DNA of 64,000 nucleotides, taken from Deltaproteobacteria bacterium GWC2_55_46 (GTDB taxonomy: Bacteria > Desulfobacterota > GWC2-55-46). Under the pieces are notes generated by a model. It was not told where the DNA came from, made no database searches, and worked only from the letters and a program-made list of their open reading frames with translations. This document shows, one piece after another, positions 23,602-27,885 of this stretch. Position numbers and translations under genes: made by a program. Each line of letters opens with the position of its first letter. Position 1 is the stretch's first letter. The stretch covers positions 1,145,501 to 1,209,500 of the forward strand of contig LVEI03000001.1 in NCBI GenBank assembly GCA_001595385.3, in the 5' to 3' direction.

Positions 23602-24702
23602 ATGGCCGATGAGAAAGTAACATTGAGTGTTTTTACCGCCGACGTGGGCGGCTTTGTCGGCCATGTCAGCAGCCATCCGGAAGTGCTTGATACCGCTAAA
23701 GAAAGGCTGTACACGGCCGGCACCAAAGGAAAGATATCCGATTTCCATATCTTAAGATGCGGCGACGACATAAACCTTGTCATCACTCATTTAAGAGGGA
23801 CCGACGACAGGGAGATACATGCCCTTGCCTGGGATACGTTCCTTGCCTGCAGGGAGACTGCGGAAGAGCTCAAGCTCTATGGCGCGAAAAGGGGGATGCT
23901 CGAGGACTTTACCGGGAACATAAAGTGCATGGGCCCTGGCGCGGCAGAGATCGAGTTCGCCGAACGCACAAGCGAGCCCGTACTCGTCTTTCTCTCCAAC
24001 AAGACCTCTGTCGGCTCATGGAACCTCGCCCTCTACAAGATCTTCGCAGACCCGTTCAACACATCAGGGCTTGTCTCCGACGCGGCCATGCTCAATGGGT
24101 TCACCTTCAGGTTGCTCGATATCAGGGAAGAGCGGACGGTTGAGATCTCAACACCCGAAGAGCTGCACATACTCCTTGCGCTCGCCGGCTCCACGTCGAG
24201 GTACATTATCACCTCGGTCTCGAGGCGCTCGGACGGGGAGATAGCAGCCGCCATCTCATCCGAAAAATACGACGTCTTGGCCGGCAAGATAGGCGCCAGA
24301 TGCGAACCGGCCATGCTGGTGCGCTGCCAGAGCGGGTTCCCGGCTGTGGGAGAGGTCATGGAGGCGTTCACGCTGCCTTACCTTGTATCCGGCTGGATGA
24401 GGTACTCCCATATCGGCCCCTTGATGCCGGTCCCTTTTTACGAGGCGAACCCGACGAGGTTCGACGGCCCTCCCAGGGTCATATCAGCCGGGTTTCAGAT
24501 ATCGGGCTCCAGGCTCATAGGCCCGCACGACATGTTCGACGACCCGAGCTTTGACGAGGCCAGAAGGCTTGCCAACAAGTCTACAGAGTACCTGCGCAGG
24601 CATGGCCCTTTCCAGCCTCACAGGCTCCCGGAGGGGGAAGCGGAGTACTCCTTGCTGCCGATAATCCTCGATAAGATAAAAGACAGGTTCAGGAAGGTCT
24701 AA
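23602..24702 (+). CDS. Fructose-1,6-bisphosphate aldolase/phosphatase family protein, catalytic residues substituted
   Basis: 366 residues, colinear with the archaeal/thermophile FBP aldolase/phosphatase (class V FBPase), which makes fructose-6-P from triose phosphates in gluconeogenesis. Conserved: ADVGGFVGH (Asp14, His21), CGDDINL (Asp55, Asp56), FADPFNT, RCQSGFPAVGE, GWMRYSHIGPLMPV, TRFDGPPR, and the C-terminal RRHGPFQPHRLPEGEAEYS. In typical members the aldolase Tyr and Schiff-base Lys lie in an AGKYVGKDDP-type motif; here the aligned residues 228-236 read AGKIGARCEP, so Tyr is Ile230, Lys is Arg233 and the next two Asp are Cys/Glu. The ADKTEPG and AGQD metal-site motifs read SNKTSVG and AKRG. 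The ATG has GAGGAG upstream. Confidence 0.85.
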   Translation: MADEKVTLSVFTADVGGFVGHVSSHPEVLDTAKERLYTAGTKGKISDFHILRCGDDINLVITHLRGTDDREIHALAWDTFLACRETAEELKLYGAKRGMLEDFTGNIKCMGPGAAEIEFAERTSEPVLVFLSNKTSVGSWNLALYKIFADPFNTSGLVSDAAMLNGFTFRLLDIREERTVEISTPEELHILLALAGSTSRYIITSVSRRSDGEIAAAISSEKYDVLAGKIGARCEPAMLVRCQSGFPAVGEVMEAFTLPYLVSGWMRYSHIGPLMPVPFYEANPTRFDGPPRVISAGFQISGSRLIGPHDMFDDPSFDEARRLANKSTEYLRRHGPFQPHRLPEGEAEYSLLPIILDKIKDRFRKV

Positions 24703-26539: not shown

Positions 26540-26848
26540 ATGCTTGCTGAGTTCAGCATAGTGCCTGTAGGCTCAGGAGAGAGCATGGGAGACGCCATAG
26601 CGAGCGTCCTCAAGATAGTCGACCAGAGCGGCCTTCCTTACAAGGCCTCGGCGATGGGCACCATCGTAGAGGGCGGCTGGGACGAGATAGTCTCGCTCGT
26701 TAAAAAGTGCCATGAGGAAGTGCTCAAGAAGGCCCCCAGGGTCACAAGCACGATCCAGTTCGACATCAGGCCCGGGAAGCCTCAGGACCGCCTGACCGAG
26801 AAGCTCAAAAGTGTCGAGAAGCGCCTCGGCAAGGAGGTCAAAAAATAA
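26540..26848 (+). CDS. MTH1187-family thiamine-binding-type protein
   Basis: 102 residues from the ATG at 26540, placed 5 nt after AAAGGAGG; longer in-frame starts are not conserved. The whole chain is the MTH1187/YqgV fold: EFSIVPVGSGESMGDAIASVLKIVDQSGLPYKASAMGTIVEGGWDEIVSLVKKCHEEVLKKAPRVTSTIQFDIRPGK. Members bind thiamine or related hydroxymethylpyrimidine compounds, so a role in vitamin handling is plausible. Its stop overlaps the proposed AUA start of rtcA in ATAA. Confidence 0.9.
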   Translation: MLAEFSIVPVGSGESMGDAIASVLKIVDQSGLPYKASAMGTIVEGGWDEIVSLVKKCHEEVLKKAPRVTSTIQFDIRPGKPQDRLTEKLKSVEKRLGKEVKK

Positions 26849-27885
26849 TAGAGATCGACGGCAGCTACGGGGAGGGCGGGGGCCAGATGCTCCGGACCGC
26901 CTTGAGCCTGGCCTCCGTAACAGGTCTGTCTATGCGCCTTTTTAACATCAGGGCTGGCAGGGCTCACCCCGGGCTACAACCCCAGCACATACAGAGCGCC
27001 AGGGCGGCCGCATACATAACAGGCGGTGAATTAAAGGGCGACCTTCCCGGCTCGATGTCCATAACATACATCCCAGGCAGGCCCAGGGCCGGGAGATATT
27101 TTTTTGACGTAGGGACAGCTGGCTCCGCCGGACTGGTATTCCAGACCGTCGCGCCTGCGCTCTTCTTCGCGCCCGCCCCATCAGGCGTCACCATAAAAGG
27201 CGGCACCCATGTCCCATGGAGCCCGCCGACAGACTACCTTGAAGAGGTCTTCCTTCCGGCGATATCGCCGATGGGCCTGCATGCGCGCCTCAATACCGCG
27301 GCACGCGGCTATTATCCAGCCGGCGGCGGCTCGATAACGGCTTCGATAAGCCCTGCCAAAGCCCCGGCCTCACTCTTACAGATAATAGAGCGCGGCAGGC
27401 TTGAAAAAATCAAGATAATATCCGCTGTCTCAAACCTTCCGATCTCGATCGCCGAGCGCCAGATAAAAGGCGCCATCTCAAGGCTCCTTGAGTTTTCATC
27501 GCTGATAGAGGCTGCCTCTATCGAGGCGCCTTCACCGGGAAGGGGCACCTCGGTATTCATACTCGCCTGCTACGAAAACCTGAGGGCCGGGTTCACCGCC
27601 CTCGGCGCCAGGGGCAAAAGGGCCGAGACGGTAGGGGCTGAGGCTGCTGAAGATTTTATCTCCTACGCCACAGGACTGGGCGCCCTCGACAACCACCTCT
27701 CTGACCAGGTCCTCATTTACATGGCCCTTGCAGGCGGACGCTCCTTTTATAGCGCGTCTCAAATAACCGGCCACCTGCTTACCAATATCCACGTTATCGA
27801 AAAATTCCTGCCCGTTAAGTTCCATGTGGAAGGCAATGCAGGGCAAGTGGGGCTTGTGCGCGTAGATGGCGCGGGATTTTCCTGA
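26845..27885 (+). CDS. rtcA: RNA 3'-terminal phosphate cyclase RtcA (proposed AUA start)
   Basis: 346 residues if it begins at ATA 26845. RtcA converts RNA 3'-phosphate to a 2',3'-cyclic phosphate using ATP. The conserved N-terminus IEIDGSYGEGGGQMLRTAL starts right after this ATA codon; the first ordinary start, ATG 26887, would delete the ATP-handling IEIDGSYGEGGGQ. AAGGAGGT lies exactly 7 nt before the ATA. Other marks: GLQPQH, GTAGSAGLVFQTV, GTHVPWSPPTDYLEEVFLP, GYYPAGGG and DQVLIYMALAGG. The adenylylated His is in GHLLTNIHVIEKFLP (about residue 310, against His309 in E. coli). The gene overlaps the previous stop by 4 nt. No rtcB or RtcR is adjacent. Confidence 0.93.
   Translation: MIEIDGSYGEGGGQMLRTALSLASVTGLSMRLFNIRAGRAHPGLQPQHIQSARAAAYITGGELKGDLPGSMSITYIPGRPRAGRYFFDVGTAGSAGLVFQTVAPALFFAPAPSGVTIKGGTHVPWSPPTDYLEEVFLPAISPMGLHARLNTAARGYYPAGGGSITASISPAKAPASLLQIIERGRLEKIKIISAVSNLPISIAERQIKGAISRLLEFSSLIEAASIEAPSPGRGTSVFILACYENLRAGFTALGARGKRAETVGAEAAEDFISYATGLGALDNHLSDQVLIYMALAGGRSFYSASQITGHLLTNIHVIEKFLPVKFHVEGNAGQVGLVRVDGAGFS

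Follow-up and report, generated by a model that had tools for sequence, protein, structure and literature searches.

Results

The junction between the thiamine-binding protein gene and rtcA

The window, by which we mean the whole 64,000-nucleotide stretch of DNA that was analysed, carries a gene for a thiamine-binding protein followed on the same strand by rtcA, the gene for RNA 3'-terminal phosphate cyclase. The features at this junction are listed below.

26540..26848, + strand: gene for an MTH1187-family thiamine-binding protein, 102 aa (PF01910, E 2.9e-27; TIGR00106, E 4.5e-22)
26831..26838, + strand: Shine-Dalgarno (SD) sequence AAGGAGGT, inside the 3' end of the upstream gene (8-base complementarity to the consensus anti-SD)
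26845..26847, + strand: proposed AUA initiation codon of rtcA, in an ATAA overlap with the upstream stop (from the sequence and the relatives)
26846-26848, + strand: stop codon TAA of the thiamine-binding protein gene (from the ORF coordinates)
26848..26850, + strand: second tandem ATA, the less probable start (relatives do not preserve a near-cognate start codon here)
26845..27885, + strand: rtcA, RNA 3'-terminal phosphate cyclase, 346 aa counted from the AUA (PF01137, PF05189, TIGR03399; PDB 4o89, 1qmh)
26887..26889, + strand: first ordinary in-frame start of rtcA, ATG, codon 15 (not conserved as ATG; a start there loses IIEIDGSYGEGGGQ)

The two genes share ATAA 26845-26848, an overlap of 4 nt and thus of the -4 type. 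From the overlap onwards the rtcA frame reads ATA ATA GAG ATC GAC GGC AGC TAC GGG GAG GGC GGG GGC CAG and then reaches ATG 26887; the presence of two ATA codons in tandem, at 26845 and 26848, adds to what had been observed earlier for this DNA. Upstream of ATA 26845, the rtcA frame stays open for about 44 codons before it meets a stop, and this stretch is devoid of ATG, GTG, TTG and CTG. The spacer between AAGGAGGT and ATA 26845 is CAAAAA, and 7 nt separate the end of AGGAGG from this ATA. We calculated an SD duplex of -11.6 kcal/mol for the window rtcA using the consensus anti-SD, which may differ from the genome's own, the consensus 16S 3' end not being found in assembly G000. The predicted mRNA structure at the rtcA junction showed nothing unusual (z 0.07).

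Two other genes of the window deserve mention. Positions 23602-24699 encode a fructose-1,6-bisphosphatase that matches FBPase_3 with 470.9 bits, a mainly archaeal type. The ORF at 24825-25358 matches NMD3 weakly, its 23.9 bits falling slightly short of the cut-off of 24.9; NMD3 is an archaeal/eukaryotic ribosome export family, and a match in a bacterium is unusual.

The N-terminus of RtcA

The rtcA product scored well above the family cut-offs of PF01137 (253.5 bits, cut-off 27; E 1.7e-75) and TIGR03399 (364.8 bits, cut-off 250.05), and PF05189 matched it as well in the profile search. Both the profiles and the solved structures align to RtcA from query residue 2. Residue 2 of 4o89, which we take to be an archaeal RtcA, is paired with query residue 2, which places residue 1 of 4o89 opposite the ATA 26845 codon. 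The N-terminal IDGSxGEGGGQ motif is present, here as IDGSYGEGGGQ (alignment to 4o89 and 1qmh). Query E10 stands opposite Glu14 of 1qmh, and query H310 opposite chain residue 309 of 1qmh, presumably the catalytic histidine (His309 of E. coli RtcA). The protein therefore resembles the RtcA of known structure in its full-length homology, in its N-terminal motif and in the histidine aligned to 1qmh residue 309, while it differs in its context: here rtcA is linked to a gene for a thiamine-binding protein, and the sole RtcB match lies elsewhere in the genome.

If translation began at ATG 26887, all of IDGSYGEGGGQ would be lost, and with it the Glu aligned to Glu14 of 1qmh. Judged from the alignments and the reading frame, the N-terminus of RtcA begins at the ATA 26845 codon, for which no ordinary start is available; initiation there would yield a protein beginning with fMet-IEIDGSYGEGGGQ.

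The start codon of rtcA in related genomes

Within the class, 63 genomes were searched, rtcA was found in 29 and every locus was inspected. Across the phylum, 132 of 395 genomes had a match, and loci were taken from the best 30 matches, 24 of which lie outside the class. Ten loci repeating an already counted genome were omitted from the locus table, and one locus was kept per broken copy.

The 4-nt overlap between the thiamine-binding protein gene and rtcA recurs in 17 of the 29 class loci. An ATA sits exactly on the stop in 16 of these 17 (ATAA in 14, ATAG in 2), the remaining one, L015, having GTAG. One more locus, L020, has ATA ATA at the homologous codon together with AAAGGAGGT; its contig starts 112 bases upstream, and no thiamine-binding protein gene was recognised there. 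The 11 non-overlapped class loci begin with TTG (7), GTG (2) or ATG (2). The two ATG loci are L021, from another family, and L028, from the same family, a fragment at a contig end with its ATG in the same register. The nine others (L008, L011, L012, L016, L019, L023, L026, L055 and L056) start with TTG or GTG in an open frame lacking ATG.

Overall, ATG is absent from the open frame in 24 of 29 class rtcA loci and present in 23 of the 24 loci outside the class, which are the best-ranked of 132 genomes. An initiator ATG stands at the homologous codon in 15 of those 24 best-ranked matches.

The sequence-only reading had proposed that rtcA starts at an AUA within an ATAA stop/start overlap. This proposal is supported by ATA at the same position in many relatives: other species of the genus, family and order have ATA there, not ATG. 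Its accompanying claims, namely that ATG, GTG and TTG are missing in frame upstream, that ATG 26887 would remove the conserved N-terminus and that an SD precedes the ATA, agree with our frame inspection, with the structure alignment and with the position of AGGAGG 7 nt before ATA 26845. A sequencing error at 26845 can be discarded, ATA being common to many genomes.

Fifteen loci, the window included, can be aligned in one register. Codon 1 is ATA in 14 of these and GTA in the fifteenth; codon 2 varies between ATA, ATC, ATT, GTA and GTC, and nearly all later codons vary at their third positions. Since the first codon is kept and the second is variable, ATA 26845 is favoured over ATA 26848. The RtcA N-terminus is extended by 3-8 codons in L014, L018 and L030, yet the ATA remains on the stop, which indicates that it tracks the stop rather than the protein. 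AAG or GTC comes after the overlap ATA in L014 and L018, and an in-frame ATC closer to the motif is an additional near-cognate candidate in L014 and L030.

These ATA codons are found in RtcA lineages 45-68% identical to the window's RtcA, mostly in intact frames under purifying selection. In a quick tree of 35 rows, from which L028, L029 and L030 were omitted, the 15 ATA rows fall into a 20-row group (SH-aLRT 80) together with three TTG, one GTG and one GTA rows and no ATG row; the ATA may have a single origin in this tree. The overlap loci are related and their counts are not independent: when near relatives are collapsed, about ten lineages are left, according to our own grouping from the tree.

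That the ATA is a lost ATG in a decaying gene without a real start is extremely improbable in our view. Broken copies in G001, G002 and G003 and the restriction of rtcA to 29 of 63 class genomes would fit such decay. However, the ATA is common to divergent, mostly intact rtcA genes, the 20-row group that holds the 15 ATA rows has no ATG, and a lost ATG would not be replaced by the same codon each time and then retained. The broken copies, which affect half of the six genomes of the genus, keep the ATA junction (L005 in G002, with TAG at codon 320; L034 in G003, with a frameshift; L042 in G001, with several lesions), and expression of rtcA may therefore matter little in this genus.

Codon evolution across the overlap

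Compared with the congener G002, the 14 codons from ATA to CAG show 0, 0 and 4 differences at codon positions 1, 2 and 3, whereas the 36 codons before the ATA show 15, 5 and 8, which is the pattern of the upstream gene's frame. Likewise, in the stretch upstream of the overlap, L015 and L017 show 20, 13 and 5 differences at codon positions 1, 2 and 3 of the rtcA frame.

These patterns bear on the reading that rtcA has another start: the second ATA (26848), ATG 26887, or a distant ATG or GTG inside the thiamine-binding protein gene. ATA 26848 adjoins the proposed start, and three loci (L015, L017 and L024) do carry an ATG or GTG 46-56 codons upstream of the overlap, within the thiamine-binding protein gene. 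Against this reading, relatives do not preserve codon 2 as a near-cognate start, and the upstream extension of the rtcA frame evolves only as the thiamine frame requires and is interrupted by stops in L002, L003, L005 and L025. The codon at the position of ATG 26887 is ATA, ATC or GTC in several relatives, and a start there would lose the GEGGGQ motif. Taken together, we regard a start at any of these sites as very improbable. More specifically, an upstream start is rejected, as 15 of the 18 ATA/GTA loci have no ATG, GTG or TTG at all in the open frame, stops intervene and the extension evolves in the other frame. ATG 26887, unconserved and removing the motif, is rejected as well and appears very unlikely as the start on these comparisons.

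A single transition would turn ATAA into ATGA with the stop retained. Sampled ORFs end most often in TGA (40 of 93 in this genome, 46 of 93 in G002), yet none of the 17 overlaps has this stop. In 16 of the 17 the stop is preceded by A, even though AAA, ACA and GGA are minority codons (395/1599, 252/1311 and 229/2188, respectively). By these comparisons, the ATA is conserved against both base composition and stop-codon preference.

The same conservation speaks to a different reading, a -1 slip at the end of the thiamine-binding protein gene that would produce a thiamine-protein/RtcA fusion and leave the start codon unused. The rtcA gene is indeed in the -1 frame, a 389-codon open frame spans the junction, AAA AAA precedes the TAA in the window, and L015 has GTA instead of ATA. 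Yet of the 17 overlap loci just two, L002 and L010, have AAA AAA before the stop; the others have AAG AAA, AGG AAA, AAG ACA, AAG GGA or GAG AAG, where re-pairing of the P-site tRNA in the -1 frame would be poor. Moreover, GTA, CTA and TTA would serve a fusion equally well, yet the A is kept in 16 of 17. Programmed -1 frameshifting is thus rejected for want of a conserved slippery sequence before the stop, and we give this reading hardly any credence.

As a control, 200 kb of this genome was compared with 200 kb of G002, yielding 93 reciprocal ORF pairs, among them a few wrong-frame shadow ORFs. In 13 of the 93 pairs, both members showed similarity reaching 5 or more residues upstream of their first ordinary start. 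Among these 13, only rtcA had changed like coding sequence over the last 14 codons before that start; in the other pairs the similarity ran only a short way into the leader or came from an overlap with a different frame. Twelve further pairs were flagged on one side only, and none of them resembled a gene without a start. The 93 pairs of this 200-kb sample contained no other AUA-start gene, and ordinary starts in the sampled genes were ATG in 63, GTG in 11 and TTG in 6 of 80.

infC and the tRNA set of the lineage

The frame of infC, which encodes IF3 and is the classical example of a gene with a non-AUG start, begins at ATA in 24 of 26 loci of the order, the other two being without a recognisable motif. 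A strong SD, with duplex energies from -7.3 to -12.7 kcal/mol, precedes the ATA in these 24 loci; none of them has an ATG, and 21 lack any ordinary start. The locus of assembly G000 (L125, G000:C2:59718-60215) and 23 further infC loci among L111-L136 have the ATA behind an SD of the GGGGG/GGAGG type. Given this conservation through the order, AUA initiation with a strong SD appears, from comparative evidence, to belong to the normal repertoire of the lineage.

E. coli infC starts with AUU. The rtcA junction resembles infC, of this lineage and of E. coli, in its near-cognate AUN start, its extended SD (in the window and five further loci), its conservation across species and probably its sensitivity to IF3. 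Unlike infC, rtcA does not encode a factor that checks start codons, so autoregulation is not the reason for its AUA.

In the sampled ORFs isoleucine is encoded most often by ATA (1000 of 1721). Of the 43 tRNA matches, three have a CAU anticodon and look on inspection like an initiator, an elongator Met tRNA and a tRNA-Ile2 type; none has UAU, and no special AUA-reading initiator is present among the 43. With ATA as the commonest Ile codon and an ordinary set of CAU tRNAs, an unusual genetic code or a special tRNA was rejected. The initiator-like CAU tRNA (L101, G000:C3:28401-28474, - strand) has the GGG/CCC anticodon stem and apparently U1 and U72; the acceptor end of the E. coli initiator has a C1-A72 mismatch. 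The 43 matches also lack tRNA-Ile(GAU) and tRNA-Ala(UGC); with the consensus 16S 3' end not found either, the rRNA operon is perhaps missing from, or masked in, the G000 assembly.

Discussion

Our comparisons indicate that AUA 26845 is very probably used as the start codon of rtcA. We also consider it likely that this is a coupled start, fed by the ribosome that ends the upstream gene and keeping RtcA low. A ribosome finishing the thiamine-binding protein gene would halt at UAA 26846-26848, where stop and start codon overlap. The SD (AAGGAGGU here) would retain the ribosome or its 30S subunit at the junction, and a small fraction of ribosomes would re-initiate one base back, at the AUA. The ordinary initiator tRNA would read AUA 26845 via a third-position mismatch, so that synthesis would be expected to begin with fMet. 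The AUA being a poor start, RtcA output would amount to a small, fixed fraction of the upstream protein, and selection would hold the codon weak and bar its change to AUG. The weak AUA probably serves to keep the RtcA dosage low, and the repeated use of TTG and GTG in non-overlapped relatives fits selection for a weak start.

If the AUA is used, there is a good chance that its initiation is coupled to termination of the thiamine-binding protein gene, as suggested by the commonest coupling geometry, by the ATA following the stop and by the many loci that keep ATA without a strong SD. Alternatively, AUA 26845 could be a start used independently of the upstream gene, with a free 30S subunit binding the strong SD and the stop overlap reflecting compact packing. 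The window SD is complementary to the consensus anti-SD at 8 of 8 positions, infC has its ATA behind an SD of similar strength, and L020 retains ATA ATA and AAAGGAGGT without a recognised thiamine-binding protein gene. On the other hand, SD strength among the 18 ATA/GTA loci is strong (-11 kcal/mol or better) in 6 including the window, intermediate in 6 and weak (-3.5 to -5.5) in 6; the 12 loci without a strong SD still hold ATA (or GTA) on the stop, and the ATA tracks the stop where the N-terminus lengthens (L014, L018 and L030). We therefore find independent initiation unlikely. The coupled AUA start has its own difficulties, namely these same 12 loci, the GTA of L015 and the unrecognised upstream gene of L020. 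Further points against it are the broken rtcA copies of the genus, the ATG of L028 from the same family, a tRNA set without a special AUA-reading initiator, and the E. coli result described below.

The sequence-only reading had likened the junction to ATGA couplings. The geometry is indeed identical to that of ATGA termination-reinitiation overlaps, where the start shares bases with the preceding stop and which form, at -4 nt, the commonest coupling overlap (PMC10666635). Coupling itself is putative, and here ATA replaces ATG: in the E. coli experiments cited from PMC9955659, an SD-less aUAA that replaced AUGA gave no coupled initiation while RRF was active, and with RRF inactivated all frames were read at a related UAAua junction. 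A near-perfect SD, absent from that aUAA construct (PMC9955659), is present in the window and in five other loci. According to PMC2268962, the presence of an SD relieves IF3 inhibition of re-initiation.

The Hecht 2017 study of initiation reportedly covered all 64 codons. For natural AUA starts, the closest cases are infC and ccpN of Staphylococcus aureus (ccpN also of Bacillus subtilis; PMC13009471), which share with rtcA a conserved AUA, the lack of an ordinary start, an expected low output and, for the window and five further loci, a strong SD. The S. aureus AUA starts with extended SDs were reported to reach about 10% of AUG, ccpN attaining as much as 30% when the medium was rich (PMC13009471). 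Similarly, changing the rpoS ATG to ATA is described as lowering RpoS up to 5-fold (PMC12864459). The infC and ccpN starts of S. aureus were mapped by ribosome profiling, as stated in PMC13009471, whereas the rtcA AUA is known from comparison only; the rtcA AUA also differs in overlapping the stop of the preceding gene and in belonging to an unrelated enzyme gene.

AUA starts (infC, ccpN; PMC13009471) and -4 overlaps are thus both known from the sources cited here, and the placing of an AUA inside a conserved overlap is what appears to be new. An order-wide AUA start inside a stop/start overlap was not found in the literature searched, with subscription papers mostly outside its scope, which is weak evidence of novelty.

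We also entertain, as a speculative and rather doubtful combination, that rtcA and infC share the AUA, so that RNA repair would track IF3-dependent start checking, with more of both proteins when IF3 is scarce relative to ribosomes, and that ribosomes re-initiate at the AUA of the AUAA junction, unlike those of E. coli in the SD-less experiment of PMC9955659.

Natural bacterial AUA starts are known from few genes. The rtcA case is deeply conserved, avoids in many lineages a one-step change to ATG and sets a weak codon in the commonest coupling geometry. Pipelines that accept only ATG, GTG or TTG must truncate such genes, and an ATG call here loses the N-terminal motif. At the rtcA junction one could test directly how ribosomes pick a start codon after termination, and whether weak starts are a means by which cells hold RNA-repair enzymes low.
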